Below, piece by piece: positions 21,249 to 40,363 of a DNA stretch of 64,000 nucleotides. The stretch lies in NCBI RefSeq assembly GCF_012848855.1, contig NZ_CP051630.1, positions 1,467,501-1,531,500 on the forward strand, read 5' to 3'. This DNA is from Pyruvatibacter mobilis. GTDB lineage: Bacteria > Pseudomonadota > Alphaproteobacteria > CGMCC-115125. The position numbers and the translations under genes are program-made. The notes beneath the pieces are model-generated. The model did not search any database. It was not told the origin of the DNA and was given only the letters and a program-made list of their open reading frames with translations. Each line of letters begins with the position of its first letter. The stretch's first letter is position 1.

Positions 21249-23852
21249 CTACTTGCCGCGGGCGGCCTTCTGCGCCTTGCCGATGGCCGATTTCAGATGC
21301 TCGCTGGTATAGGGCTTCTGCAGGGTTGGCAGGTCGGGCAGGTCTTCCACCGCTGCCTCCTCGGCCCCGTAGCCCGTGGCCATGAGCGTGAGGATGCCGC
21401 GCTCCGCACAGGCCCGGGCGACGGCGGCGGACGTCTCCTCGCCAAGATTCACGTCAAGCAGGGCGAAGGTGAACTCGTGGGCGTCCAGCTCCCGCAGCGC
21501 GTCCGAGACGCGGCTGGCGGTGATCACAGGCTCGGCACCCAGATCGCCCAACATGTCGGACGCATCCATCGCGATGATGAGATTGTCTTCCACCACGAGC
21601 GCGGGGCCGTCCAGACGCACATCGACAGCGGCTTCCTCGTCCGCCGCCACCGTGCCGGCGGACGTGGCCGCGCCTTCCCGCACATAACTTTCCGGGATCA
21701 CGAAATCGGCCTCCATGCCCGTAACCTTGAACCGCACATCCACTTCACCCTTGAGCTCGAACGGCACGGACCGCTCGATGATGGTGGTGCCGAAGCCGCG
21801 CCGGGTCGGCGCGTTGACCGCAGGCCCGCCCTTCTCGCGCCAGGTGATGGACAGGCGCCCATCGGGGCGGCGGGCAATGGCCATGTCCACGGTCCCTGTC
21901 TCATTGCTCAGCGCCCCATATTTGGCCGAGTTCGTGACAAGTTCATGCACGACCAGCGCCAGGCAGGTGAAGGCGGACGGCGACAGGTCCACGTCGTCGC
22001 CGACGACGGAGACGCGCGCGGCGCGCTCCATGAGGAACGCGGTGATTTCGTTGTCGATGAGGGAGCGCAGCGACACCCATGACCACTTGGTGCCCGTCAG
22101 CTGATCATGGGCGCGGGCCAGGGCATAGATCCGGTTGTCCAGCACCCGGCAATATTCGTCGATCGACACGCCGGACCCGCGCCCCTGGGCGACGATGCTG
22201 CGGATCAGATTGAGGATATTGCGCACACGGTGGTTGAGCTCGGCGATCAGCAGTTCCTGCTGCTCCTGCGCCCGCTTGCGGACCGCATTGGTCTCGTCGG
22301 CGATCTTGAGCACCACTTCGAGCAGGGTCACACGCAGGGCATCAGCCGCACGCCTCTCGGCGCGGGTCCATGGCGCGCAGCGGCCGCGCACCACTTCCTG
22401 CCAGGCCTCAAAGCTCTTGCGCGGGGTGAGGCGCGAGCCATGCGGGCCGATCTCGACGGGCTTGTCCGGATTGCCGGCCCAGGACACCGTCTGCACCAGT
22501 TCGCGGCGGAAAAGCACGATGTAATCGCGCGGCTGGCGGGAGATGGGCAGCGCCAGCATACCGGCGGCGCGCTCGACGAAATCATCGCCCTTGGCATAGC
22601 GGGCGGAGATGCAGTCAGTGGAATAGATGTGGCCGGCCTGGGTGGTGTTGAGGAAGCGGGCAAGCCCTGCGAACTCCTCTGCCGTCGGCGCGGGGCCCTG
22701 GGCAACATAATGGCCGTTGGAATAGATCGAGATGCCGTCGAAATCGATGACCTCTTCGATGTCCGCGCCGATGGTGTCCAGCGTGGTGGCGAGATCAACG
22801 CCGCTGGAGACCTTCACCATCAGCCGGTCATGCAGGGCCCGGGATTTGTCCGCCTGCTGAAGTTCCTCGTTCATTTCGAGCTGGGCAAGCTCATAGTTGA
22901 ACAGCTGGCCGAACAGCTCCACGGCGCTCCGCTTTTCAAAATCGATATAGCGCGGCGTGTTGTGGTGGCAGGCAAACAGGCCCCACAACTTGCCCTGGCG
23001 CAGGATCGAGACCGACATGGAGGCCCCTACCCCCATGTTGCGCAGATATTCCAGGTGGATGGGCGACACGGCGCGGGCGACCGACAGCGACAGGTCCAGC
23101 CGGTCGCCATTGGGCATCACGTCGGGAATGATGGGATGGATGGCCCCGTCCACATCCGCGATGAGCCGGAGCATATTGCGGCAGTAAAGTGCGCGCGCCT
23201 GCTTGGGAATGTCGCTCGCGGGATAGCGCAGGCCGAGGAACGACTCCATGCCGGGGCCCGCGGCTTCGGCGATCACCGTGCCCGTGTCGTCTTCCTCGAA
23301 GCGGTAGACCATCACCCGGTCGAAGCCGCAAAGGAGCTTGAGGCCGCGGGCGGCTTCCCGCGCCATGCTTTCCATCTCGTCGTGGCGCGCCACGCGGGCG
23401 ATCAGGCCCTGCACCTGAGCTGCGTCGTCCCTGTCGCCGGGTTCGTCGGCGCGGGGCTCGAACTCGAGCACCGTGAGGTGGCCGGACGCATGGATCGACA
23501 CATCGAAGCGCCGGCCATCGCCGAAGACCGGATAGCTGAACAGGCGGGCTGACGCATTCTGGTTGGCGAGCGTCTGCATGCGGGTGCGCAGATCATGGGC
23601 GAGGCCGCTGGGGAAGATGTCGCCGAAAGGCGCGCCGATCATCGCTTCCGCATCGAAGCCCAGCTTGTCAGCACAATTTGTGGAGGCATGGGCGATGATC
23701 CAGTCGGCGGAGACCGCGACCAGGCAGCCGAAATCCTGCACGTGGCCGAGAATGTGGATCGGTTCCCGGTCACAATTGCTGAGGTCCACCGGTTCACCGG
23801 CGAGAGTGGGATCGGGGTCACGCAAGGGCAGGCACTTTCTCTTCGGCCGCAT
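21249..23852 (-). CDS. bphP: Bacteriophytochrome histidine kinase with C-terminal receiver
   Basis: Red/far-red photoreceptor kinase of 867 residues. Order: PAS with the biliverdin-binding Cys27 in NCDREPIHI; GAF with LRYPASDIPKQAR and SPIHLEYLRNMGV; PHY with the tongue motif PRKSFEAW; an HWE/HisKA_2 kinase with phospho-acceptor His541 in ELNHRVRN; HATPase; and a receiver with phosphoacceptor Asp800 in LLDVNLGEE. The fused receiver suggests internal phosphotransfer or phosphate-sink behaviour. Its ATG at 23852 overlaps the bphO stop by 35 bases and lacks a clear ribosome site; a TTG overlapping the bphO stop is an alternative but would drop only about ten residues and keep Cys27. No output regulator is adjacent. 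Confidence 0.95.
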   Translation of the reverse strand: MRPKRKCLPLRDPDPTLAGEPVDLSNCDREPIHILGHVQDFGCLVAVSADWIIAHASTNCADKLGFDAEAMIGAPFGDIFPSGLAHDLRTRMQTLANQNASARLFSYPVFGDGRRFDVSIHASGHLTVLEFEPRADEPGDRDDAAQVQGLIARVARHDEMESMAREAARGLKLLCGFDRVMVYRFEEDDTGTVIAEAAGPGMESFLGLRYPASDIPKQARALYCRNMLRLIADVDGAIHPIIPDVMPNGDRLDLSLSVARAVSPIHLEYLRNMGVGASMSVSILRQGKLWGLFACHHNTPRYIDFEKRSAVELFGQLFNYELAQLEMNEELQQADKSRALHDRLMVKVSSGVDLATTLDTIGADIEEVIDFDGISIYSNGHYVAQGPAPTAEEFAGLARFLNTTQAGHIYSTDCISARYAKGDDFVERAAGMLALPISRQPRDYIVLFRRELVQTVSWAGNPDKPVEIGPHGSRLTPRKSFEAWQEVVRGRCAPWTRAERRAADALRVTLLEVVLKIADETNAVRKRAQEQQELLIAELNHRVRNILNLIRSIVAQGRGSGVSIDEYCRVLDNRIYALARAHDQLTGTKWSWVSLRSLIDNEITAFLMERAARVSVVGDDVDLSPSAFTCLALVVHELVTNSAKYGALSNETGTVDMAIARRPDGRLSITWREKGGPAVNAPTRRGFGTTIIERSVPFELKGEVDVRFKVTGMEADFVIPESYVREGAATSAGTVAADEEAAVDVRLDGPALVVEDNLIIAMDASDMLGDLGAEPVITASRVSDALRELDAHEFTFALLDVNLGEETSAAVARACAERGILTLMATGYGAEEAAVEDLPDLPTLQKPYTSEHLKSAIGKAQKAARGK

Positions 23853-24417
23853 CGGCGGCGTAATGGCTGAACAGGGCGAAGACGGCGCGGGCGTCCGTCA
23901 CGATGGTTTCATTGCCCGGCAGGCGGGCGTCACCCCTGCCCGCACCGGTGCAGAATGTTTTCCACACATCCAGATAATCCGGCGCCGTGAAGAAGGCCGC
24001 GGCGTGCCGGACGTCCGGCTGCGTGCTGCTGCGCCAGCGCTTCTTCAGCATCGCGTTGCCGAGGCGGGACCCGGCCAGCACGTAATCCACGGCATCCGGG
24101 TGAAGCCGGGCAGCATCAACAGGCGGGACAGCAACGGGCGGCACCTGATGGCCCAGCACCGCAAGGTCCGTCCGGGCACGGTGCGCAAGATCCACGATCA
24201 TCAGCTTGCTGATGTTTCCCGCATCGCATTCGGACAGGACGCCAAGGGCGCGCGCCTGCATGCGCAGGAACACTGCCAGTCCGTCCACGGATGAAACGTC
24301 GACATGGGCAAGGCGCGTATCCAGCGCGTCATGCGCCGGACGGGTCTCCGCCCGGAGACGATCACGCAGGAAAATAGAATTGGCCGCCGGAATGGGTGGC
24401 ACTCCAATCGATGACAT
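23818..24417 (-). CDS. bphO: Biliverdin-producing heme oxygenase
   Basis: Heme oxygenase of 199 residues that opens heme to biliverdin, iron and CO, supplying the phytochrome chromophore. The proximal heme ligand is His29 in LRAETRPAHDALD, and the distal helix is recognisable at VDYVLAGSRLGNAML, where the family has a Gly-rich kink. The ATG at 24417 with AGG nine bases upstream is preferred to a start 35 codons earlier, whose leader is rich in His/Arg and not family-like. It is translationally linked to bphP. A Fur-like box lies about 150 bases upstream on the other side of the divergent promoter region. Confidence 0.9.
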   Translation of the reverse strand: MSSIGVPPIPAANSIFLRDRLRAETRPAHDALDTRLAHVDVSSVDGLAVFLRMQARALGVLSECDAGNISKLMIVDLAHRARTDLAVLGHQVPPVAVPPVDAARLHPDAVDYVLAGSRLGNAMLKKRWRSSTQPDVRHAAAFFTAPDYLDVWKTFCTGAGRGDARLPGNETIVTDARAVFALFSHYAADAAEEKVPALA

Positions 24418-24566
24418 ATGGCTTTGCCTGAGTATGTGCGCCCTATGGGCGGCAGCTACGCAGCCGTACCGATGTTGAAAATGTGCCCCTGTAACCCCGC
24501 ATCTTCCATGGTTTGCGTCCAATTCTCAACAACGGATTTGCCGGGGCTGCGGCGGAAAAGCGCAAT

Positions 24567-24581
24567 TGCAAATAAGTCGCA
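24567..24581 (+). promoter_or_regulatory. Fur-like box in the divergent bphO / iron operon promoter
   Basis: TGCAAATAAGTCGCA is a 15-base imperfect palindrome of the TGCnAnT-n-AnTnGCA form used by alphaproteobacterial Fur proteins. An AT-rich stretch that could contain a -10 (TATATT) follows. It is about 95 bases before the porin-like gene start and about 150 before bphO, so it could control one or both. The 259-base intergenic stretch holds nothing else I can name. Confidence 0.45.
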
Positions 24582-24676
24582 TTTATATTAGAAGCAGCAC
24601 CCGGCTGGGGACTTTTCATACTGCTTCCGCGTTTCGGAGGCGGCGACCAACAACAAACACCAATGGGGGCTTTGCC

Positions 24677-25768
24677 TTGCCACAACTTTCCGCCATCGCC
24701 AGGACCATGACCGCGCTCGTGGCCACAACCTGCCTCACAGCCCCCGCCCTTGCGGAAGACAGCTTTCCGCGCATTAAGGGCGAGATCCCGATCGAGATCC
24801 AGAACGATTACACCTACGATTCCGATGACCGGGACGCGGAGCTGAACGACCTCTACACGACGATCGAACCTGCGGTGAGTGTTCGGTTCACGGAGGAGTT
24901 TTCCATCGAGGCAGGCCTTGTGCTGGAGCCTGTGCTGGACCCGGACCCGCGCGACGACCGCTTCTTCGAGGATGAGGGCCTGTTCGTCGAAACCCTGTTC
25001 CTGCAATACGCGACCGACAGCTTTTCGCTGTTCGGCGGCAAGATAAATCCGGCCTTCGGGGTGGCATGGGACATTGCCCCTGGCGTCTATGGCACGGATC
25101 TGGCCGAAGACTACGAGCTGACCGAACGGATCGGCCTGGGCGGCAGCGTTACCCTCGGCAATGACGAGACGGGGCTGCACACCATCACTGCCTCCACCTT
25201 CTTCGCCGACACCAGCTTCCTGTCTGAATCCCTGATTACCGAGCGGCCACGCAACCGGAAGTCGTCCGGCGGTGTCAGCAACACGGAAGACTTCTCGTCC
25301 TTCGCGGTGGCGCTGGACGGTGATCTCGGCATCGTGGTGCCCGGCCTTGCCTACCATCTGGGCTTTGAGAGCCAGGAAGGCGGCACCGGCAACCCGGAAG
25401 ACGAATTCGGCATCGCCGCGGCGCTCTATGGTGAGTTCGAGATCGGCGAGGACACGGTGCTTGGACCGGTGGTCGAGTATGTCCATCAGTCCGACGCCGG
25501 CGGCATCGCCGAGGACCGAGATTACATCACCCTCGGTGCGGCCCTCGTGCACGGGCCGTGGAACATCGCCGTGTCCGACACCATCCGCACCATCGACCCG
25601 GCCGGGGCCGGCGACGTGGATGACAACCAGTTCCAGGTCTCCGGCGGCTACGCCTTCGACAACGGGCTGGCGCTGGACATCGGCTACAAGCACACCGAGG
25701 AGTCCAATTCGGATTCCAACACGGTTGGCGCTCTCCTCACCTACACCCTTCCCTTTTCAGCCCCTTAA
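24677..25768 (+). CDS. Outer-membrane beta-barrel porin-like protein
   Basis: Secreted protein of about 363 residues with a signal peptide ending APALAED and alternating hydrophobic/polar strands throughout, ending in GALLTYTLPFSAP. The composition (acidic, Gly/Thr/Asp-rich, no cysteine after the signal) fits an outer-membrane barrel. I do not recognise a precise family; siderophore porins of the LbtU kind occupy a similar context elsewhere. The best start is a TTG at 24677, with GGGGG upstream, giving a normal 26-residue signal; an ATG at 24707 is the alternative and gives a short signal without positive charge. It is the first gene of the iron-type operon, 21 bases before the imelysin. Confidence 0.7.
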   Translation: MPQLSAIARTMTALVATTCLTAPALAEDSFPRIKGEIPIEIQNDYTYDSDDRDAELNDLYTTIEPAVSVRFTEEFSIEAGLVLEPVLDPDPRDDRFFEDEGLFVETLFLQYATDSFSLFGGKINPAFGVAWDIAPGVYGTDLAEDYELTERIGLGGSVTLGNDETGLHTITASTFFADTSFLSESLITERPRNRKSSGGVSNTEDFSSFAVALDGDLGIVVPGLAYHLGFESQEGGTGNPEDEFGIAAALYGEFEIGEDTVLGPVVEYVHQSDAGGIAEDRDYITLGAALVHGPWNIAVSDTIRTIDPAGAGDVDDNQFQVSGGYAFDNGLALDIGYKHTEESNSDSNTVGALLTYTLPFSAP

Positions 25769-25789: not shown

Positions 25790-27073
25790 ATGAAGACACA
25801 TTTGATCGCCATCGCAGCCAGTGCGTTTGCACTGGCACCGGCCATGGCCCATGCCGCGCAGGGTGATGCACCCGGCAAGGATGCCGTGCTGGACACCTAC
25901 GCGGATATCGCCCAGGCGGGCTATGAGGATTCCGTCACGCTCGCCAAGCAGCTGGAGACCGCTGTCGAGGCGCTGGTCGCCGATCCGTCCGCCGAGACGA
26001 TGACCGCTGCCCGTGAGGCGTGGCTCGCCTCCCGCGTGCCCTACATGCAGACGGAAGTCTATCGCTTCGGCAATCCGATCGTGGATGACTGGGAAGGCAA
26101 GGTGAATGCCTGGCCGCTGGATGAAGGCCTCATCGACTATGTGGATGCGTCCTACGGCACGTCTTCCGGCGACAACGCGGCCTATGCGGCCAATGTGATC
26201 GCCAATGCGGAGCTGACCCTCAGCGGCGAGACGGTGGATGCCTCCACCATCGACGCAGCGCTGCTGGCGGAGACGCTGCACGAGCTGGGCGGCGTGGAAG
26301 CCAATGTGGCAACGGGGTATCACGCGGTCGAATTCCTGCTCTGGGGTCAGGACCTGAACGGGACCGGACCGGGTGCCGGTGACCGTCCGTGGACGGACTA
26401 CGCCAAGGGTGACGACTGCACCAATGGAAATTGCGCGCGCCGCGGCGAATATCTGCTGACCGCCACGCACCTGCTCGTGGACGACCTTGAGTGGATGGCC
26501 TCAGCCTGGGGCCCTGAGGGCGACGCGCGCGCCGACCTTACCGCCGAGGGCGCGGATGCCGGTGTGGCCCGCATCCTGACCGGCATGGGCAGCCTCTCCT
26601 ATGGCGAGCTTGCCGGTGAGCGCATGCAGCTCGGCCTGCTGTTGCATGATCCGGAGGAGGAGCATGACTGCTTCGCCGACAACACCCACAACAGCCATTA
26701 TTACGACGCGCTGGGCATCGTGAATGCCTATCGCGGCCGCTACACCCGCATTGACGGGTCGGTGGTTGACGGTGCGTCGGTGTCCGACCTCGTGGCCGCC
26801 AAGAATGGCGAGGCCGACAAGGCGCTGGTGGCGAGCCTCGATGCAACGATGGCAGCCATGGGTGCGCTGAAAGACCGCGCTGACAATGGCGAGGCCTATG
26901 ATCAGATGATCGGCGAAGGCAATGAGGCGGGCAACGCCGTGGTCCAGGCCGCCATCGACGGCCTGACCGCGCAGACCCGCGACATCGAAGGTGCCGTTGC
27001 GGTGCTCGGCCTTGAGCCGATCGCCTTTGAGGGCTCCGACAGCCTCGATGCCCCCGAAGCGGTGTTCGAGTAA
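25790..27073 (+). CDS. Imelysin family periplasmic protein (IrpA-like)
   Basis: 427-residue M75/imelysin protein with a signal peptide ending AMAHAAQG. The family hallmark GxHxxE is present as GYHAVE at residues 176-181. It has the two-bundle layout, with a Cys-containing loop (DDCTNGNCARRGEY) between and a second conserved stretch DCFADNTHNSHYYDALGI. IrpA-type imelysins are iron-regulated and thought to bind iron or an iron complex; no peptidase activity is implied by the residues. It lies second in the operon, 21 bases after the barrel gene. Confidence 0.92.
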   Translation: MKTHLIAIAASAFALAPAMAHAAQGDAPGKDAVLDTYADIAQAGYEDSVTLAKQLETAVEALVADPSAETMTAAREAWLASRVPYMQTEVYRFGNPIVDDWEGKVNAWPLDEGLIDYVDASYGTSSGDNAAYAANVIANAELTLSGETVDASTIDAALLAETLHELGGVEANVATGYHAVEFLLWGQDLNGTGPGAGDRPWTDYAKGDDCTNGNCARRGEYLLTATHLLVDDLEWMASAWGPEGDARADLTAEGADAGVARILTGMGSLSYGELAGERMQLGLLLHDPEEEHDCFADNTHNSHYYDALGIVNAYRGRYTRIDGSVVDGASVSDLVAAKNGEADKALVASLDATMAAMGALKDRADNGEAYDQMIGEGNEAGNAVVQAAIDGLTAQTRDIEGAVAVLGLEPIAFEGSDSLDAPEAVFE

Positions 27074-27097: not shown

Positions 27098-28669
27098 GTG
27101 AGTGTCAGGACGCGTTTCGTCTTTCAGCTTCCGGCTGGCCGCCTCTTCCGCACAATGATGATGCGTGGCCCTGCCCTTGCCGGCGGGGCCATTGCTGTTT
27201 GTGCAGTGTTTCTCGGTGCGGCGGTCACGCCTGTTGCCGCCCGTGATGCCGGAGAGGCGGCCCGGGTCGCCAGGGTCACGGCGCCTGCGACGGATTTCTC
27301 CGCGCCCGAACCGTTCGAAACGCGGCCGGGCGGCGCCGCCACCAGCTTCAAGCACCCGAACAGGGACGCCTTCTCCCAGCCATCCGCCAACATGCCCTTC
27401 GAGCGGCAACTCGATTTCCGGGTCGGCAATGGCATCTTCAAGAAGATCTGGGTGTCGTCGCCAAGTTCCACCCAATCGTCCGACGGGCTGGGTCCCCTGT
27501 TCAATGCGCGCTCGTGTCAGCGCTGCCATCTGAAGGACGGGCGTGGCCATCCGCCTGCGGCGGGGGAAACGCCGGTCTCCATGTTCCTGCGCCTCTCCAT
27601 TCCGCCGCAGACGGAAGACGACCGGACCGCGCTTGCGACCTATCTCGCAAGCGTCATTCCCGATCCGGCCTATGGCGGCCAGCTTCAGAATTTCTCGATC
27701 CAGGGTCATGACGCCGAAGGCGACATGAAAGTCACCTATGAGGAAGAGACCGTCACCCTGGGCGACGGGACCGAGGTGAAGCTGCGGCGGCCGGTCTATG
27801 AGGCGGTCAATCTGAAATACGGGCCGATGCATCCGGACGTGATGCTGTCGCCGCGCGTCGCGTCGCCAATGATCGGGCTCGGGCTGCTCGAGGCCATTCG
27901 CGCCGAGGACGTTCTTGCTGGCGCGGACCCGGAGGACAAAGACGGTGACGGGATTTCAGGCCAGCCCAACTGGGCCTTCAACCACGAGACCGGCGAGGTT
28001 GAGCTCGGGCGGTTCGGCTGGAAGGCGGGCGAGCCGAGCGTTGCGCAGCAATCGGCTGCCGCGTTCCATGGCGATATCGGCATTTCCACTCCCCTCTTCC
28101 GCACCCATTACGGCGATTGCCGGGAAGGCGCACAGGACGGCTGCCGGGACGCCCCCCATGGCGGCACACGCGACGGCACGGTCACCGAAGCGACGGACGA
28201 CATGTTCGAGCGGGTGGTGTTCTACAGCCGCAATCTCGCCGTGCCGGCCCGGCGCGACGTAGATGACCCGCAGGTGCTGGCAGGCAAGAAGCTGTTCTAC
28301 GAGAGCGGATGCATCAGCTGCCACACGCCCAAATTCGTGACCCGGCGCGATGCCATCGGCGAGGAACAGTCCTTCCAGCTCATCTGGCCCTATTCGGACA
28401 TGCTGCTGCATGACATGGGGCCGGGGCTGGCGGACAACCGGCCGGAGGGGGCCGCGAGCGGGCAGGAATGGCGCACGCAGCCGCTCTGGGGCATCGGGCT
28501 GACGGAGGCCGTCAGCGGGCATACATTGCTGTTGCATGACGGCCGGGCGCGGAATGTGCTTGAAGCCATTCTGTGGCATGGCGGCGAAGCACAGGCCGCC
28601 CGCGACAATGTGGCGGCGATGCCCGCCGAGGACAGGGAGGCGCTTCTTGCGTTCATCAATTCACTCTAG
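27098..28669 (+). CDS. Di-heme oxidoreductase (DUF1111 family)
   Basis: Exported c-type cytochrome of 523 residues, related to di-heme peroxidases and often annotated as thiol oxidoreductase. Heme sites are CQRCH (140-144) and CISCH (405-409). The N-terminal GTG start is preceded by AAAGG, and a signal sequence ends about PVAARDAG. Its C-terminal region ends with a Gly/His-rich LWGIGLTEAVSGHTLLLHDG typical of the family. Located between two imelysin genes, it plausibly changes the redox state of iron or of a ligand. The 3' end overlaps the next gene by 23 bases. Confidence 0.9.
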   Translation: MSVRTRFVFQLPAGRLFRTMMMRGPALAGGAIAVCAVFLGAAVTPVAARDAGEAARVARVTAPATDFSAPEPFETRPGGAATSFKHPNRDAFSQPSANMPFERQLDFRVGNGIFKKIWVSSPSSTQSSDGLGPLFNARSCQRCHLKDGRGHPPAAGETPVSMFLRLSIPPQTEDDRTALATYLASVIPDPAYGGQLQNFSIQGHDAEGDMKVTYEEETVTLGDGTEVKLRRPVYEAVNLKYGPMHPDVMLSPRVASPMIGLGLLEAIRAEDVLAGADPEDKDGDGISGQPNWAFNHETGEVELGRFGWKAGEPSVAQQSAAAFHGDIGISTPLFRTHYGDCREGAQDGCRDAPHGGTRDGTVTEATDDMFERVVFYSRNLAVPARRDVDDPQVLAGKKLFYESGCISCHTPKFVTRRDAIGEEQSFQLIWPYSDMLLHDMGPGLADNRPEGAASGQEWRTQPLWGIGLTEAVSGHTLLLHDGRARNVLEAILWHGGEAQAARDNVAAMPAEDREALLAFINSL

Positions 28670-29747
28670 GCGGCAGGGACTGGCGGCAGTTTTTGCAACG
28701 GGCCTCGCCGCGCTCCTGTGCCTCGCCACCCCTGCCCGCGCGGCGGATTATGCCTCGGTCAATGCAGCCGTGGCCGAGGGCCACATCCTGCCCGCTTATG
28801 ACGCGCTGGCAGAGGCCGGGACGGCACTGGCTGCCGTGACGGACAGTTATTGCGCGGCAGACGCGCCGCTGGCGGATGCCCGGCAGGCGCTGGCGGCGTT
28901 CCGACGCAGCTGGGCCGGGGCCGAGCATCTGCGGTTCGGACCCGCCGAACTGGGGATGCGCAGCCTGCGGATCAATTTCTGGCCGCAGGCGCGCGGCAAG
29001 GTGGCGGACGCCCTGTCCTCCGCGCTTGCCAAGGCTGAGGAAGCTGGTGGCGGCATGGATGTCGCGCGCCAGTCCTTCGCCGTTCAGGGCGTGCCGGCGC
29101 TGGACGCGTTGTTCAACGGTGACGACAGTGCCGCACCGGGGACGCCGCGCTGTGACCTGGCGCAGGCGATTGCCGGGAATGTGGCGCGGATGACGAGTGC
29201 CATCCGCGATGAGTGGACCGGCGGCAACACGCCCTATCTTGCAGCCTTCACCACGCCGGGCACCGGAGCCCTGCCCTTCGAGGATCATGCGGACGCGACG
29301 CTGGCCCTGTTCAAGAGCCTGCATGATGAGCTGAGCCGCATCCTGGCGCTGAAGATCGAACCGGCACTGGGCAAGACACCCGCGGACGCCCGGCCCAGCC
29401 ATGTCGAGGGTGTCGCCCCGGAGGCCGCGCTAGACACGATCCGCACCAATCTCGCAGCGCTTGAAGCGCTTTATCAGGGTCCGGATGGAACCGGCCTGGC
29501 AGCGCTGGCGGGCCAGAGCGTGACCGATACGGCGCTTGCCCCGCTGATGGAGAAGGCCTTCAGCAAGACGCGGGCGACGGCAGACAGCATTGCCCTGCCC
29601 CTGGCGGATGCTGTGACTGACGCAGAAGAGCGCAAGAAGGTGGCGCACCTGGCCACGCAGTTGCGCGCCCTGCGGCAGATCGTCGGCACGCGGCTGGCGG
29701 AGGCGCTGGGGCTGAGCGTGGGATTCAATTCGCTCGATGGTGACTGA
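28647..29747 (+). CDS. Second imelysin family protein
   Basis: Periplasmic 366-residue imelysin-like protein. It begins with a signal peptide ending LATPARAAD and has the family helices, including FRRSWAGAEHLRFGP. It lacks the GxHxxE motif of the first copy; the corresponding region reads QGVPALDALF, so it is probably a divergent partner rather than a duplicate. The start is a TTG at 28647 with GGGAGG six bases upstream, which lies inside the end of the preceding gene. A start at 28536 would put 37 non-secretory residues before the signal. It overlaps the DUF1513 gene by 11 bases. Confidence 0.85.
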   Translation: MRSSIHSRRQGLAAVFATGLAALLCLATPARAADYASVNAAVAEGHILPAYDALAEAGTALAAVTDSYCAADAPLADARQALAAFRRSWAGAEHLRFGPAELGMRSLRINFWPQARGKVADALSSALAKAEEAGGGMDVARQSFAVQGVPALDALFNGDDSAAPGTPRCDLAQAIAGNVARMTSAIRDEWTGGNTPYLAAFTTPGTGALPFEDHADATLALFKSLHDELSRILALKIEPALGKTPADARPSHVEGVAPEAALDTIRTNLAALEALYQGPDGTGLAALAGQSVTDTALAPLMEKAFSKTRATADSIALPLADAVTDAEERKKVAHLATQLRALRQIVGTRLAEALGLSVGFNSLDGD

Positions 29748-30864
29748 CCGGCGGCACTTTCTGGCGGCGGCAGGTGCAGTGCTGCTGGCACCGCAGCTTC
29801 TGCCCCTGCGCGCGCTGGCAGCAGATGATGCGCCGCGCCGCTTCGTCAGCGGGTTGCGGCGGGAGACGGGCGACTTCGCGCTGGCACTGATAGACGCGCG
29901 TGGCAGGGTGCTGGCGCAGGCCGATATGCCGGGGCGGCCGCACGCCATCGCGGCAAGTGCTGACGGCAGGCTGCTGGCGGCTGCCGCGCGGCGGCCGGGG
30001 CGGTATCTCCATGTCCTGTCCGGCGATGATCTTGCGCCTCTTGCCGAGATCAGTGCGGCGGCGGGCCGGCACTTCTATGGGCACGCGGCGTTCTCGCCGG
30101 ACGGGCGGCTGCTTTACACGACCGAGAATGACTATGACGCAGAGACGGGCGACGCGGAGACCGGCGTTATCGGCGTCTACGACCTGAAGGATAACGGCAC
30201 GCGCCTTGGTGAATTTGCGTCGCACGGCACCGGGCCGCATGAACTGCGGCTGATGCCGGACGGGGTGACACTGGCGGTCGCAAACGGGGGCATCGCCACC
30301 CATCCGGACATGCCGCGGCTCAAGCTCAACATCGACAGCATGGCCCCGAGCCTCGTCTTCATTGACCGCCGGACGGGCAGCCTCACCGGGCAGGCGGTCA
30401 TGCCGCCTGAATGGCACCAGCTCAGCATCCGCCACCTCACCATCGCACCGGACGGGCTGGTGGCCGTGGGGATGCAGTTCGAGGGCGCGCGGATGGAGCA
30501 GCCGCAGTTGGTGGCGCTGGCGCGGCCCGGGGACACCTACCTCACGCCCCTGCCCCTGCCCGACGCGGAACTGGCGCGGATGAAGGGCTATTGCGGCAGC
30601 GTCGCGTTTGACGTGGCCGGGCACTATCTGGCTGCCACGTCGCCGCGCGGCGGGATGGCGGTGCTGTTCGACGCCGTCACACGCCGCTATGCGACGACGG
30701 TGCGGCTTGCGGATTGCTGCGGCGTGGCGGCGGCGGGCATGCCGGGCCGGTTCGTCCTCACCTCCGGCACCGGCGCGGTCCGGGAAATTGATGCGCAGAG
30801 TAATGACATCCACGAAACCGGACAGAGCGGCGGGGCCTTCGACAATCATCTGACGGCCATTTGA
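29737..30864 (+). CDS. DUF1513 family protein, Tat-exported
   Basis: 375-residue protein with a twin-arginine signal (TDRRHFLAAAGAVLLAP) and repeated WD-like/beta-propeller blades such as GRPHAIAASADGRLLAAAARRPGRY and GHAAFSPDGRLLYTTENDY. The family is a hallmark last gene of the imelysin/di-heme operon. Function is unproved; a periplasmic propeller could bind an iron chelate or a cofactor. The start overlaps the second imelysin by 11 bases. The operon ends here, with no clear terminator in the 84 bases before the pump genes. Confidence 0.9.
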   Translation: MVTDRRHFLAAAGAVLLAPQLLPLRALAADDAPRRFVSGLRRETGDFALALIDARGRVLAQADMPGRPHAIAASADGRLLAAAARRPGRYLHVLSGDDLAPLAEISAAAGRHFYGHAAFSPDGRLLYTTENDYDAETGDAETGVIGVYDLKDNGTRLGEFASHGTGPHELRLMPDGVTLAVANGGIATHPDMPRLKLNIDSMAPSLVFIDRRTGSLTGQAVMPPEWHQLSIRHLTIAPDGLVAVGMQFEGARMEQPQLVALARPGDTYLTPLPLPDAELARMKGYCGSVAFDVAGHYLAATSPRGGMAVLFDAVTRRYATTVRLADCCGVAAAGMPGRFVLTSGTGAVREIDAQSNDIHETGQSGGAFDNHLTAI

Positions 30865-30948
30865 TCATGGCTGAATTGCACGTCTTGGATTGAGGCGGAT
30901 CGTGCTTTAATCAGGCGGTGATTCAACTGGACCTCAGGATTGATGAGC

Positions 30949-32037
30949 ATGACCCTGCGCCGTTTCCTCTCCCTCACCCGAAACGGCCCCAAGGGTCTTC
31001 TCGTTGCGGTCGCCCTCTCATCGGGGCTTGCCGCCTGCGCCGAAGATGATGCGGCCCCGGCCGAGCCGCCGGCACGCCCGGCCAAGCTGTTCGAGGTCGA
31101 GGAAACGCTCAACGCACGGACCACGAATTTTCCCGCTGTCATCAAGGCACGGTCGAGCGCGGAGCTGACCTTTGAGGTCGGCGGGGTGCTTGAAGTGTTC
31201 CCCGTCTCCGAAGGCCAGCAGGTGGCGAAGGACGAGCTGATTGCGCAGCTCGAACAGCGCAGTTTCGAGAACGACGTGGCGCAGGCGGAAGCGCAGTACC
31301 GGAACGCGCAGGCCCAGTTCAACCGCGCTGCCCAGCTCATCGACAAGGGCACGATTGCCCGCAGCACCTATGACACGCGGCTGAAGGACCGGGACGTTGC
31401 GAAGACGGCGCTGGACAATGCGCGCAAGCGGCTGGAGGACAGCACCATGCGCGCGCCCTTCGACGGGGTGATCGCCACCAAGCATGTGGACCAGTTCCAG
31501 ACCATCGCGCCGCAAACACCTATCGTGACAATCCAGTCCACCGGCGCTGCTGAAGCCGTGGTGCAGATCCCGTCACGGCTGGTGGCCAACTCCAACCAGA
31601 TCCAGCCGATCGAGACCGTGGTGATCCTGGACGCGGCACCGGACACGCCGATCCCGGCCTCCATCGTGTCGACATCCACACGGACCGACCCGCGCACCCA
31701 GACCTTCGAAGTGAGTTTCGCGTTCGAGCCGCCGGAGGAGCTGACCATCCTGCCAGGCATGACGGGCACGCTGCGGGCCAGCCTGGCAATCAACGGCCGC
31801 GATGGGGAGAGCCACATGCCCATTCCGCGCACCGCGGTGCTGCCGCGCGGCGAGACGCTCTATGTGTGGAAAGTTGATCCCGACACGATGACGGTGAGCC
31901 AGCAGGCCATCGAGACCGGCCCGTGGCTTGAGGAAGGCATCCCGGTGACCGGCGGGCTTGAACCCGGCGACATCATCGTCGAGGCCGGCGTTTCCTATCT
32001 GGCAGAGGGCATGAAGGTCCGCCCCTACGGGCAATAG
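30949..32037 (+). CDS. RND efflux periplasmic adaptor lipoprotein
   Basis: Membrane-fusion protein of 362 residues. A lipobox LAAC follows a short signal sequence. Next come a lipoyl-like half (FEVGGVLEVFPVSEGQQV), an alpha-hairpin (QRSFENDVAQAEAQYRNAQA) and the second lipoyl half (MRAPFDGVIATKHV), then the beta-barrel and membrane-proximal domains. The ATG at 30949 is nine bases after AGGA; the ATG at 30943 is too close. It is followed after 11 bases by the RND permease. No outer-membrane factor gene adjoins, so a TolC-type partner must be encoded elsewhere. Confidence 0.93.
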   Translation: MTLRRFLSLTRNGPKGLLVAVALSSGLAACAEDDAAPAEPPARPAKLFEVEETLNARTTNFPAVIKARSSAELTFEVGGVLEVFPVSEGQQVAKDELIAQLEQRSFENDVAQAEAQYRNAQAQFNRAAQLIDKGTIARSTYDTRLKDRDVAKTALDNARKRLEDSTMRAPFDGVIATKHVDQFQTIAPQTPIVTIQSTGAAEAVVQIPSRLVANSNQIQPIETVVILDAAPDTPIPASIVSTSTRTDPRTQTFEVSFAFEPPEELTILPGMTGTLRASLAINGRDGESHMPIPRTAVLPRGETLYVWKVDPDTMTVSQQAIETGPWLEEGIPVTGGLEPGDIIVEAGVSYLAEGMKVRPYGQ

Positions 32038-32048
32038 GAGCGGCAGCC

Positions 32049-35000
32049 ATGAACCCGGCAGAGTTTGCGGTCAAGAACCGCCTCATCAGCGTCATCACCA
32101 TCCTCATCTTCCTGTTCGGCGGGTGGATGGCCTATCTCAACATGCCGCGCTTCGAGGATCCGGAATTCACCATCCGTGAGGCGGTCGTCATCACCCAGTA
32201 TCCCGGGGCGACGCCGGAGGAAGTGGCGCTCGAAGTCACCGAGCCGCTGGAGACGGCGATCCAGGAGATGCAGGAGGTCAAGGAGATCAGGTCGGTCTCG
32301 AGCTTCGGCCTGTCGCGCATTACCGTTGAGATCAAGTACGAGTTCTCTCCCAGCAAGGACGCGCTTCAGCTCATCTGGACGAAGCTGCGCAACAAGGTGA
32401 CGGATGCGACCGGCGACCTGCCGCCGGGTGCCTCGACGCCTCTGGTGAATGACGATTTCGGCGATGTTTACGGCATCTACTATCTGGTCACCGGCGAAGG
32501 CTTCAACGATGACGAATTGCATGACTACGTCAAAAGCCTGCGCACACGCCTGCTGACGGTGGATGACGTCGGCAAGGTGGTGATCACCGGCGTGCAGTCA
32601 GAAGCGATCTATGTGGAGATCGCGCGCGACCGGGCGGCGGCGCTGGGGGTTTCCATCGACCAGGTGTTCAACGATCTGGCACAGCAGAACTCCGTCGTGT
32701 CAGCGGGCAGCGCGCGGGTTGATGATCTCCGCATTCAGATCCTGCCGACAGGCAATGTGGATTCCGTCAGCGCCATCGAAAATGTGATTGTATCAACGGC
32801 TGCATCAGACGGCTCCGGTACGACGGGCGTGGTTTACCTGCGTGACATCGCCACCGTTCGCCGGGAGCTCAAGGACCCGCAGAGCTTCATCCTGCGGCAC
32901 AACGGTAAGCCGGCCCTTGGGCTGGGCATCGCCAATGTGAGCGGGGCCAATGTGGTGAAGGTTGCCGACGGTGTACGCGAGACGCTGGCACGGGAAATGA
33001 CCGACCGGCCCATCGGCATCGATATCCACGAATATTACAATCAGGGCGAGGTGACCGACGACGCGGTACAGGACTTCGCCCTCAACGTGGTGATGGCACT
33101 GGTGATCGTGCTGGTGACGCTGCTGATCTTCATGGGAAAGGTCTCAGCTCTCATCATCGGCGCGGTTCTGCTGGTGACCATCGCCGCGACGCTGACCACC
33201 ATGAACCTGGTGGGCATCCCGATGCACCGCATTTCGCTGGGGGCGCTCATCATCGCGCTGGGCATGCTGGTGGATAATGCCATCGTGGTGACCGAGGGCA
33301 TTCTGGTGGGCGTGCAGCAGGGCCGCCGCAAACTTGAGACCGCCAAGGACATTGTGACGCGGACGTGGTGGCCGCTTCTGGGCGGCACCATTGTCGGCAT
33401 CATTGCCTTTGCCCCCATCGGCTTTGCCGCCGGCAACACGGCGGAATACACCAACCACTTGTTCTGGGTGATCCTGATTTCGTTGCTGTTCAGCTGGGTC
33501 TTCGCAATCACACTGGTGCCGCTGATGGCGGACTGGATGTTCAAAGAGACCCACGCCGGTGACCGGCAGGATGCGACGGAAAGCCGGTTTTTTGTTCTGT
33601 ACAAGGATTTCATGCGGCGGGCGCTGAGGCGGCGCTGGATCGTGGTGGCGGGCGCCTTTGCCCTGTTCGGTCTGTCGATCTGGGGGTTCCAGTTCACCAA
33701 GGCCGGGTTTTTCCCCGTGTCCACCACACCGCAGATCATTGTGGATTACTGGCTGCCCGAAGGCACTGATATCTCCCGCACCAATGCCGACATGGCCAGG
33801 CTTGGCAATACCGTGGGGGCCTTGGACGGGATCGAGAGCGTGACAACCTATGTGGGCCAGGGCGGACTTCGCTACATGCTGGTCTATGGACCGGAATCAC
33901 CCAATTCCGCCTATGGGCAATTGCTGCTTCGGGTTACTGACTCCTCGCTCATTGAAGACCTGATGCCCCGCATCCAGTCCTATGCGGATTCGGCCTTCCC
34001 GGATGCGCAGACAAAAGTCCGGCGGTTCCGGCTCGGGCCGGGCGGCGGTTCGCTCATCGAGGCACAGTTCTCAGGCCCCGATCCTGACGTGCTGCGGGAT
34101 CTTGCGACCCAGGCCACCACCATCATGTCCGAGGATGGCAGGCTGGTGGCGGTGAAGAATGACTGGCGGCAGCAGGTGTCGGTGATCGAGCCCGTCTATT
34201 CCGAAACCAGCGGAAGGCGGCTTGGCATCTCGCGCGAGGACCTGGCCAATGCGCTGCGCTCCAACTATTCGGGCCGCACCATCGGCTATTACAGGGAGCA
34301 GGACGAGCTGATCCCCATCGTGTCGCGCGCCCCGGCGGCGGAACGCGCAGGCGTGTCCGACATCGGCAATGTGCAGATCCCCTCCCAGGCCACCGGGCAA
34401 TCGGTACCGCTGCTTGAGGTGGTGAGTGGCTTCGATACCGACTGGCGCAATGCGCGGGTGCGGCGGCTGGAGCGGGTATGGACGATCAAGGCGCAGGCCG
34501 ACCCCGGGCCGGACGAGCTTGCGTCGGAAGCGCTTGCGCGCATCCGCCCGAAGATCGAAGCCATCGACCTGCCGCCGGGCTATTCTCTGATCTGGGAAGG
34601 TGAAGCGGGCGACAGCGCGGAAGCCAATGAGAGCCTTGCCGCTACCATTCCGCTCGGCTTTGCGGCGATGGTGCTGACCATCATCGTGCTGTTCAACGCG
34701 TTGCGGCAACCGGCGCTGATCTGGCTTACGGTGCCGCTGTCCTTTATCGGCGTCGTTGTCGGCCTGCTGGTCACCAACAGCGCCATGGAGTTCATGGCCA
34801 TTCTCGGCGTTTTGTCGCTGTCCGGTCTTCTCATCAAGAACGCCATCGTGCTGGTGGACCAGATGGACCTTGAAATCCGCGAGGGCAAGGCGCGGCTGGA
34901 TGCCGTTGTGGACAGTGCCGCCAGCCGCGTGCGGCCGGTGATGATGGGGTCGCTCACCACGGTGCTGGGCGTGCTGCCGCTGATGTTCGATGCCTTCTTC

Positions 35001-35123
35001 CAGGCGATGGCCGTGGTGCTGGTGTTCGGCCTGTCCTTCGCGACGCTGCTGACGCTGGTGGTGGTGCCTGCGCTCTATGCCATCTTCTTCGGCATCGGCG
35101 AAGAAGAGACCGAGGCGGCGTGA
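32049..35123 (+). CDS. RND family efflux permease (AcrB-like)
   Basis: Twelve-helix inner-membrane proton-driven pump of 1024 residues with the usual two large periplasmic loops. TM4 carries LVDNAIVVTEG, where the canonical Asp-Asp pair is Asp-Asn, and TM10-11 keep LIKNAIVLVDQ with the proton-relay Lys. This VDNAIVV form is common in the RND branch with short names such as MexK-like pumps and does not mean it is broken. Substrates cannot be predicted. It is the middle gene of an adaptor-permease-TetR set. Confidence 0.94.
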   Translation: MNPAEFAVKNRLISVITILIFLFGGWMAYLNMPRFEDPEFTIREAVVITQYPGATPEEVALEVTEPLETAIQEMQEVKEIRSVSSFGLSRITVEIKYEFSPSKDALQLIWTKLRNKVTDATGDLPPGASTPLVNDDFGDVYGIYYLVTGEGFNDDELHDYVKSLRTRLLTVDDVGKVVITGVQSEAIYVEIARDRAAALGVSIDQVFNDLAQQNSVVSAGSARVDDLRIQILPTGNVDSVSAIENVIVSTAASDGSGTTGVVYLRDIATVRRELKDPQSFILRHNGKPALGLGIANVSGANVVKVADGVRETLAREMTDRPIGIDIHEYYNQGEVTDDAVQDFALNVVMALVIVLVTLLIFMGKVSALIIGAVLLVTIAATLTTMNLVGIPMHRISLGALIIALGMLVDNAIVVTEGILVGVQQGRRKLETAKDIVTRTWWPLLGGTIVGIIAFAPIGFAAGNTAEYTNHLFWVILISLLFSWVFAITLVPLMADWMFKETHAGDRQDATESRFFVLYKDFMRRALRRRWIVVAGAFALFGLSIWGFQFTKAGFFPVSTTPQIIVDYWLPEGTDISRTNADMARLGNTVGALDGIESVTTYVGQGGLRYMLVYGPESPNSAYGQLLLRVTDSSLIEDLMPRIQSYADSAFPDAQTKVRRFRLGPGGGSLIEAQFSGPDPDVLRDLATQATTIMSEDGRLVAVKNDWRQQVSVIEPVYSETSGRRLGISREDLANALRSNYSGRTIGYYREQDELIPIVSRAPAAERAGVSDIGNVQIPSQATGQSVPLLEVVSGFDTDWRNARVRRLERVWTIKAQADPGPDELASEALARIRPKIEAIDLPPGYSLIWEGEAGDSAEANESLAATIPLGFAAMVLTIIVLFNALRQPALIWLTVPLSFIGVVVGLLVTNSAMEFMAILGVLSLSGLLIKNAIVLVDQMDLEIREGKARLDAVVDSAASRVRPVMMGSLTTVLGVLPLMFDAFFQAMAVVLVFGLSFATLLTLVVVPALYAIFFGIGEEETEAA

Positions 35124-38365: not shown

Positions 38366-40363
38366 TTATTGTTCTTCCGTGCTTACATCAATTTCCACCA
38401 GCACGTCACCGGCGGGCACCTGTGCGCCTGCGGTGCAGCGGATGGACGTAACGGTGCCGTCCGCTTCGGCGCGGATCTGATGCTGCATCTTCATGGCTTC
38501 GAGCACGGCCAGGGTCTCACCCTTTGTCACCGCCTGCCCTTCGCGCACATGCACTTCCAGAATGAGGCCATGCATGGGGGCCAGAATGCGGCCGCCACCG
38601 GCGCTGTCGTCCTCAGCCCCGGCAAAGGCATAGAGGTTGCGCATCAGGCCGGTGCGATCGGCCATGCTGATATGCAGCACGCCGGTTTCCGGCGCGTCGA
38701 AGATCACGTCATGGGTGACGCCATCGACCTTCAGGCGGCAGCGGGCCGGGTCTGCATCCAGCAGGACAACCTCATGGGACGCGTCCCCGATGGCAACCTG
38801 ATAGGCATCCGGCCCGGCGGCGATGACGGTCACGTCTTCTGGCGCCTCCGGCGTGCCGAAGCGATAGACGGTCGCCAGGCGGCCGGTGCTGCTCCAGTTC
38901 ATCAGCTCGTCATCGACGGCGAAGGCGCGGGCCTGGGCCTCGTTGCTTTCAAGCATGTAGAAGATGGCAGCGGCGGCGGCTGTGATCTCCGGCGACGGCG
39001 CGGCATCGGCAAGATCATCGGCGGTATAGGTCTCATCGATGAAGGCCGTCGTGGCCTCGCCCTGCGCGAAGGCTGGGCGGCCCAGGGCATCGATGAGAAA
39101 ATCGCAGTTTGTCTTCGGGCCGAACAGGCCGGTGCGGCGCAGGGCCTCGATGAGGCGCTGGCGGGCGACGTCGCGGGTGGGGCCGTGGGCCATGATCTTG
39201 GCGATCATCGGGTCATAGAAGGGTGAGACCTCAAGCCCCGTCGCAATGCCCGCATCGACGCGCACGCCGTCACCTGACGGCGGCAGCCACAGATCGACGG
39301 TTCCGGTGGAGGGCAGAAAGCCGCCCGCGACATCTTCCGCATAAAGACGGACTTCGATGGCGTGGCCCGACAGGGTTACGTCTTCCTGGGTAAGACCCAG
39401 TGGCTCGCCCTGCGCGACCTTGATCTGAAGGGCCACGAGATCGAGACCGGTGATGAGTTCGGTGACCGGGTGTTCCACCTGCAGGCGGGTGTTCATTTCG
39501 AGGAAATAGAACTCGCCATCCGCCCCGAGTAGAAACTCGACCGTGCCCGCGCCGCGATAGGAAATCGCCTTTGCCGCATCCACGGCGGCTGCGCCCATCT
39601 TCGCGCGCAATTCGTCGGTCATCACCGGGCACGGGGCCTCTTCGATGACTTTCTGGTGGCGGCGCTGAACGGAGCAGTCGCGCTCGCCCAGGTGAATTGT
39701 ATTCCCTGCCTCGTCAGCGAAGACCTGCACCTCCACATGGCGCGGGCGCATGATCGCCTTTTCGAGGATCAGTTCGCCGGAGCCGAAGGCGTTCTCAGCC
39801 TCCGACCGGGCGAGCCGGATGGCTTCGGGCAGATCGGCCGTATCATCAACAAGGCGCATACCACGCCCGCCGCCGCCTGCGACTGCCTTGACCATGACGG
39901 GAAAGCCGATCTCCGACGCTGCCTTGATGAAGGTGTCGTCCGCCTGGTCTTCGCCTTCATAGCCCGGCACGCAGGGCACACCGGCGGCGATCATCCGCCG
40001 CTTAGCCTCGGCCTTGTTGCCCATGATGTCCACAGCGTCGGGGCGCGGGCCGATGAAGGTAAGGCCCGCGGCCTCACAGGCACGGGCGAAGCCGGCATTC
40101 TCGCTGAGAAAGCCATAGCCCGGGTGGATGGCCCCTGCCCCGGTGCGCGCTGCGGCGTCGAGAATTTTCTGCGGGTCAAGATAGGACTGGGCAACCGGCG
40201 CGGGGCCGATGCACACGGCTTCGTCTGCCATGGCCACATGGGGTGCCTCGGCATCAGCGTCTGAATAAACCGCGATAGTGCGGTAGCCGAGTGCCTTTGC
40301 CGTGCGTATGACACGCACGGCGATCTCGCCGCGATTGGCCACAAGGATCGAGGTAAAGCGCAT
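38366..40363 (-). CDS. atuF: Acyl-CoA carboxylase alpha subunit (biotin carboxylase + carrier), probably geranyl-CoA type
   Basis: 665-residue biotin-dependent subunit. It has biotin carboxylase with ANRGEIAVRVIRTAKALG, the ATP-grasp GGGGRGMR and EMNTRLQVEHPVTE, then a linker and a C-terminal biotinyl domain with the target Lys in LEAMKMQH near residue 632. Together with the beta subunit it would carboxylate an alpha,beta-unsaturated acyl-CoA. Sequence alone does not separate geranyl-, methylcrotonyl- and propionyl-CoA carboxylases; the AtuA and AtuE neighbours point to geranyl-CoA. It is separated from atuE by 15 bases with a GGGGGAG ribosome site. Confidence 0.85.
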   Translation of the reverse strand: MRFTSILVANRGEIAVRVIRTAKALGYRTIAVYSDADAEAPHVAMADEAVCIGPAPVAQSYLDPQKILDAAARTGAGAIHPGYGFLSENAGFARACEAAGLTFIGPRPDAVDIMGNKAEAKRRMIAAGVPCVPGYEGEDQADDTFIKAASEIGFPVMVKAVAGGGGRGMRLVDDTADLPEAIRLARSEAENAFGSGELILEKAIMRPRHVEVQVFADEAGNTIHLGERDCSVQRRHQKVIEEAPCPVMTDELRAKMGAAAVDAAKAISYRGAGTVEFLLGADGEFYFLEMNTRLQVEHPVTELITGLDLVALQIKVAQGEPLGLTQEDVTLSGHAIEVRLYAEDVAGGFLPSTGTVDLWLPPSGDGVRVDAGIATGLEVSPFYDPMIAKIMAHGPTRDVARQRLIEALRRTGLFGPKTNCDFLIDALGRPAFAQGEATTAFIDETYTADDLADAAPSPEITAAAAAIFYMLESNEAQARAFAVDDELMNWSSTGRLATVYRFGTPEAPEDVTVIAAGPDAYQVAIGDASHEVVLLDADPARCRLKVDGVTHDVIFDAPETGVLHISMADRTGLMRNLYAFAGAEDDSAGGGRILAPMHGLILEVHVREGQAVTKGETLAVLEAMKMQHQIRAEADGTVTSIRCTAGAQVPAGDVLVEIDVSTEEQ

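Follow-up and report, generated by a model that had tools for sequence, protein, structure and literature searches.

The operon to the right of the site studied here is the counterpart of the Pseudomonas imelysin operon PA4370-4373, which the excerpted text of its description calls Fur-regulated and which contains two imelysins, the second without the GxHxxE histidine, together with an EfeB homologue (PMC3143127). In both operons, as far as that excerpt goes, two imelysin genes surround a gene for an EfeB-type di-haem peroxidase and a Fur-type site lies ahead of them (PMC3143127). In contrast to PA4370-4373, the operon described here starts with a barrel gene, is followed after 75 bases by transporter-like genes, and has a control by Fur that is predicted.

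The Fur sites of Caulobacter overlap the -35/-10 elements (PMC3751524), and Fur1 of Sphingobium binds Fur boxes located before tonB2, fiuA, feoA and other iron-uptake genes (PMC7376174), both according to excerpts of these papers. As in the excerpted accounts of the Caulobacter crescentus and Sphingobium sp. SYK-6 Fur regulons, a Fur-type inverted repeat is found here before genes of TonB receptors or iron uptake. Binding was demonstrated by EMSA in those two species, whereas the present site is known from sequence alone, in a genome that also encodes Irr.

On the left side of the site there is a bphO-bphP pair, in which, as in the partial descriptions of P. aeruginosa and P. syringae, the heme oxygenase gene directly precedes the bacteriophytochrome gene. 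The expression of P. aeruginosa bphOP is described, in the excerpt, as stationary-phase and quorum-sensing dependent, apart from that of the iron-regulated HemO (PMC10936436). Unlike the Pseudomonas pairs, the one described here is divergent from an adjacent iron operon, and its phytochrome is of the HWE-kinase type. No report on the control of bphO by Fur was found among the titles and abstract openings of the open-access papers listed, and a paper on Candidatus Phaeomarinobacter makes no mention of phytochrome, iron, siderophore or heme oxygenase (PMC4110880). Our results place the imelysin operon of a marine-type alphaproteobacterial lineage in a predicted Fur regulon; a Fur-regulated imelysin operon is an already known kind of arrangement, and the proposed connection with light sensing lacks support.

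The palindrome and the rightward operon

The window, i.e., the whole stretch of 64 kb that was analysed, contains a divergent gap of 259 bases (24418-24676) between bphO on the minus strand, which starts at 24417 and encodes 199 aa, and the barrel gene on the plus strand (Table 1). The right edge of this gap is a matter of start-codon choice because alternative in-frame starts exist for the barrel gene: the TTG at 24677 was taken, but the frame could begin as far back as a TTG at 24566, and an in-frame ATG lies at 24707.

Table 1. Genes, predicted sites and candidate promoter elements around the divergent gap (window coordinates)
Feature	Position	Strand	Remarks
bphP, bacteriophytochrome	21249..23852	-	overlaps bphO by 35 bases
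bphO, heme oxygenase family	23818..24417	-	divergent from the operon, probably outside the control of the box
Weak second Fur-like site TGCGTCCAATTCTCA	24514..24528	.	score 9.4
Rival weak promoter pair TTGCAA/TAGAAG	24566-24594	+	also overlaps the box
Fur-type 7-1-7 palindrome TGCAAATAAGTCGCA	24567..24581	.	probable operator of the rightward operon
TATATT, possible -10 hexamer	24584..24589	+	candidate, two bases behind the box, no good -35
Outer-membrane beta-barrel protein, first operon gene	24677..25768	+	start codon uncertain
Imelysin (M75)	25790..27073	+	PF09375 5e-83; GxHxxE present as GYHAVE
Di-haem oxidoreductase (DHOR)	27098..28669	+	PF06537 3e-103; two CxxCH: CQRCH, CISCH
Second imelysin	28536..29747	+	PF09375 6e-34; GxHxxE absent
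DUF1513 protein, last gene counted	29737..30864	+	PF07433 2e-100

The first-pass annotation had noted one Fur-like box in this gap, with an iron-type operon to its right. The box is present as the exact string, which is the single mismatch-free occurrence of TGCAAATAAGTCGCA within the window, and the count of one holds for the strong sites but not for the gap as a whole, in which the weak second site is also found. The iron-type operon is likewise supported, with family matches for its imelysin, DHOR, second imelysin and DUF1513 proteins. A search with the single string and up to three mismatches gave one match in the window, and it is weakly informative on its own because shuffles gave 0.78 matches on average. 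With a matrix built from eight other sites of the genome (five exact and three with one mismatch), from which the box itself was excluded, TGCAAATAAGTCGCA scores 21.6 and the next window position 12.5, while the matrix derived solely from the five remaining exact sites gives 21.7 for the box vs. 12.95 for the next position. The palindrome is very probably, as predicted from its sequence, a binding site of Fur. The second-best position of the window with the main matrix, TGCGTATGACACGCA (40303-40317), scores less than the 12.8 reached by the top position of the reversed window.

The genes of the operon are separated by gaps of 21 and 24 bases, after which the frames overlap; the true start of the second imelysin is probably downstream of 28536. 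The first imelysin, the di-haem oxidoreductase and the imelysin without GxHxxE are all encoded on one strand, and the EfeB/DUF1111 protein of the Pseudomonas operon presumably belongs to the same DHOR family. The barrel protein gives weak Porin_4 and OMP_b-brl matches, both under the curated cut-off, and its N-terminus is signal-peptide-like by eye. At 75 bases after the DUF1513 gene, on the same plus strand (30940-35123), we found an HlyD-type gene followed by a gene that by eye is RND-pump-like.

No sigma-70 consensus promoter was found on either strand of 24300-24800, and the candidate elements of the rightward promoter (Table 1) are weak. We consider it highly likely, from the sequence comparisons described here, that the palindrome serves as Fur operator for the barrel-imelysin-DHOR-imelysin-DUF1513 operon and that bphO-bphP form a separate operon. 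When iron is sufficient, metal-loaded Fur would occupy the box, over the core promoter of the operon, and transcription would be blocked. Under iron shortage Fur would leave and the outer-membrane and periplasmic iron-uptake proteins would be made. The back-to-back bphO-bphP operon would be transcribed from its own promoter, nearer to bphO, and would not respond. We infer the binder, the repression, the promoter positions and this non-response of bphO.

The site before the operon in relatives

Two sets of operons were compared. The class-wide alphaproteobacterial sample comprises 54 imelysin loci from the 67 genomes, other than the source genome, with an imelysin match, 13 loci with low-identity, partial or split matches having been left out. 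The named-locus set comprises 80 imelysin loci, with many Rhizobiales and Rhodobacterales among the titles. In 77 of these loci, 300 bases are available upstream of the first gene; the nearest of the 80 is from a Candidatus Phaeomarinobacter MAG (83% identical).

Within the 300 bases upstream of the first gene, a site scoring at least 13 was found in 22 of the 54 class-sample operons, vs. 0/54 in the reversed control, 1/51 at 2 kb upstream and 0/54 inside the gene. Similarly, nine of the 77 named loci have such a site and none of the 77 in the reversed control, while 32 of the 54 class-sample operons and 68 of the 77 named ones have no upstream site at this score. The threshold of 13 bits was chosen after a first set of scores was known, and the reversed control gave 0 at 13, 15, 18 and 20. 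Using the five-site matrix, 23 of the 54 class-sample operons had a site and none in the reversed control, which stayed at 0 for thresholds of 10, 13, 15 and 18. A Fur-type site thus recurs before this operon across the class while the neighbouring genes change.

Both congeners in the sample (G001 and G003) have sites before the barrel gene, scoring 17.6 and 14.3, respectively, with other genes as left neighbours; the third congener (G002, 81% complete) is outside the class sample. The operon site of G001 is one of the three exact sites in its genome, and G003 has no exact site genome-wide. At the congener loci L053 and L054, two Fur-like sites lie 22 bases apart, approximately 1250-1285 bases upstream of the imelysin gene and before the barrel gene, the one further upstream being weaker. 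In the window, compared with these pairs, a single strong site has a weak companion at a distance of 53 bases.

The sequence TTAGAA-N3-TTCTAA, which we take to be the Irr-type (ICE) palindrome, is found ahead of the operon in 13 of the 134 other loci, at 200-385 bases upstream of the imelysin gene; the titles of most of these 13 loci name Mesorhizobium (L117, L127, L138, L155, L159, L166, L168, L169, L170, L173, L175, L178 and L183). Since this palindrome precedes the operon in these loci, the sequences suggest that the iron regulator of the operon may have changed between lineages.

The bphO-bphP pair and the proposed sharing of the site

The first-pass annotation had taken bphO for a heme oxygenase, which agrees with its kinship and with the position of bphP directly behind it. 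By itself, the bphO sequence of the window matches no significant Pfam or NCBIfam family, a direct search reaches PA-HO only at E 0.28, ranked behind an unrelated match, and PF01126 has no match in the source genome even at E 1. When 14 bphO-like proteins, the window bphO included, are combined in a profile, HemO is reached at 1e-22 and PA-HO at 4e-21; PF01126 is matched by seven of the 14 members, the window protein not being among them. The protein has the invariant histidine and the GSxLG stretch of the family; its single-sequence structure model, with a mean pLDDT of 36.8 and a pTM of 0.26, is too poor to bear on the fold. We assign bphO to the heme oxygenase family on this sequence kinship. 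The bphP product contains PHY (1e-50), HWE_HK (7e-20), PAS_2 and GAF domains and a receiver-like C-terminus, for which the receiver-type NCBIfam matches are below the cut-off.

The same annotation had proposed that the box could be shared with bphO and could link light sensing to iron supply. In this reading, Fur, aided by the weak site at 24514-24528, would also repress bphO-bphP, chromophore and light sensing would rise in iron shortage, and bphO would free heme iron; if true, red-light sensing would be tied to iron supply. We regard this as unlikely. It is likewise unlikely that, in this species, the position of bphO-bphP close to the Fur operator of the rightward operon has brought the pair under iron control through both sites, with phytochrome loading and heme-iron release following iron supply.

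The layout is indeed divergent, with 149 bases between the box and bphO. In a loose scan, which gave weak pairs only, the guessed promoter of bphO is TTGAGA/GAAGAT (24529-24501), and the weak site covers its possible -35 TTGAGA (24529-24524). The score of 9.4 is reached by two of the 134 reversed 300-base control regions, and the congeners G001 and G003, which do not have bphO there, have no site at the position matching TGCGTCCAATTCTCA; both observations count in favour of sharing. However, the strong box would lie some 70 bases upstream of the start that the guessed bphO promoter implies.

Genomic context also argues against sharing. Profile searches found bphO-like genes in 22 of the 289 class genomes, the source genome included, and we compared 22 other loci (profile matches and one further locus), in 15 of which bphP directly follows on the same strand. 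Not one of the 15 pairs has a comparable Fur-type site within 350 bases upstream, the best score being 7.6; these upstream regions are approximate, with start codons set by a fixed rule and with L206 matching only in part. Conversely, neither bphO nor bphP was found in the flanks of the 134 other copies of the operon (tblastn, E 1e-3, flanks up to 5 kb), with at least 4 kb of upstream sequence in 121 loci and less than 1.5 kb in 10; a lone diverged bphO could escape this search. Sharing is also disfavoured by the two congeners mentioned above, in which the site stays with the operon next to other left neighbours. Therefore, with bphO/bphP found beside none of the other operon copies and a site before none of the 15 other pairs, a shared iron-light switch is unsupported, and the shared reading is kept barely open by the weak site overlying the possible -35 of bphO.

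In favour of sharing, the bphO profile matches nothing in the source genome apart from bphO itself, and HemS domains are present in this genome. Against it, HemS and bphO are separated within the genus: HemS is present in G001, where no bphO was found, and bphO-bphP are present in G003, where no HemS was found. In P. aeruginosa, moreover, HemO is the iron-regulated enzyme, and bphOP follows stationary phase and quorum sensing, according to the excerpted paper (PMC10936436).

One of the seven bphO-like loci without a directly following bphP has a strong site (22.4), which also speaks for sharing. This locus (L200:1468-2034), from another alphaproteobacterium, encodes a heme oxygenase; the palindrome TGCAAATCATTTGCA precedes the gene by 102 bases, and no phytochrome was found alongside. 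From these sequence features, its product looks like an iron-type heme oxygenase under the control of Fur. Coming back to the window, there is little sign of sharing, and the light-sensor genes look like chance neighbours of the operator. Divergent genes in a single genome are a poor ground for assuming a shared regulatory site, and such cases must be interpreted cautiously.

The candidate regulators and the other exact sites of the genome

Three proteins of the Fur family are encoded in the genome, one nearest to Fur, one IrrA and one nearest to Zur. The first (L001) matches PF01475 at 4e-40 and has the ferric iron uptake regulator as its nearest NCBIfam model, at a score of 104, i.e., below the cut-off of 146. 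It is quite unlikely that the site is bound not by an iron-sensing Fur but by a different member of the family, namely Irr or a manganese sensor of the Mur kind. This alternative draws on the low score of the Fur protein, on IrrA, which is over the curated cut-off, and on the single half-site TTAGAA behind the box (24588-24593). The full Irr-type palindrome is, however, a different sequence and is absent from the gap (24418-24676), and Fur is therefore a better candidate than Irr. The alternative is also opposed by the exact sites of the genome, which include those of heme-type and siderophore receptors.

These exact sites were obtained with the 7-1-7 inverted repeat TGCRANTNANTYGCA, a degenerate palindrome used as the search pattern and chosen wide enough to accept TGCAAATAAGTCGCA, which matches it exactly. 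Its half-sites are, we assume, the alphaproteobacterial Fur half-sites. The pattern has six exact sites in the single-contig genome of 3.33 Mb and none when read backwards; with one mismatch, there are 21 sites vs. nine for the reversed control. As the pattern was chosen to accept the box, the place of the box among the six is not evidence, and the evidential weight is in the surplus formed by the five further exact sites and in their neighbouring genes.

An iron-type gene is found beside three of these five sites, and none could be assigned at the other two. The gene at 2037371 encodes a TonB-dependent receptor; its best NCBIfam models, those of heme/hemoglobin receptors, are matched below the cut-off (the protein is partial), and HemS domains are found at 2.4-3.4 kb from the site. 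At 2669386, the neighbour is a TonB siderophore receptor above the NCBIfam cut-off. The third gene, at 2289312, encodes an ABC solute-binding protein, which we read as ferric type, its nearest NCBIfam models being for other substrates and under the cut-off. The protein adjoining the site at 526345 (159 residues) matched no family, and the site at 507871 is flanked by a tRNA, with no gene directly after the site.

It is very unlikely that the palindrome arose by chance and has no function, as could be proposed from the one-mismatch sites of the reversed control and from the lack of an exact site in G003, given the excess of exact sites over the control (six vs. none), the recurrence of the site before the same operon in the class and its presence in both sampled congeners.

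The site at 507871 (G000:C1:507871-507885; L004:1501-1515) is the best-scoring exact Fur-type palindrome in the genome and lies approximately 125 bases behind the tRNA gene. A Fur-controlled small RNA was considered there and rejected: in three congeners the matches are confined to the tRNA, the predicted fold does not stand out from those of shuffles (z -0.65), and Rfam at gathering scores gives the tRNA alone. The sites with one mismatch include one near a bfd-like ferredoxin gene and one near a further TonB receptor gene.
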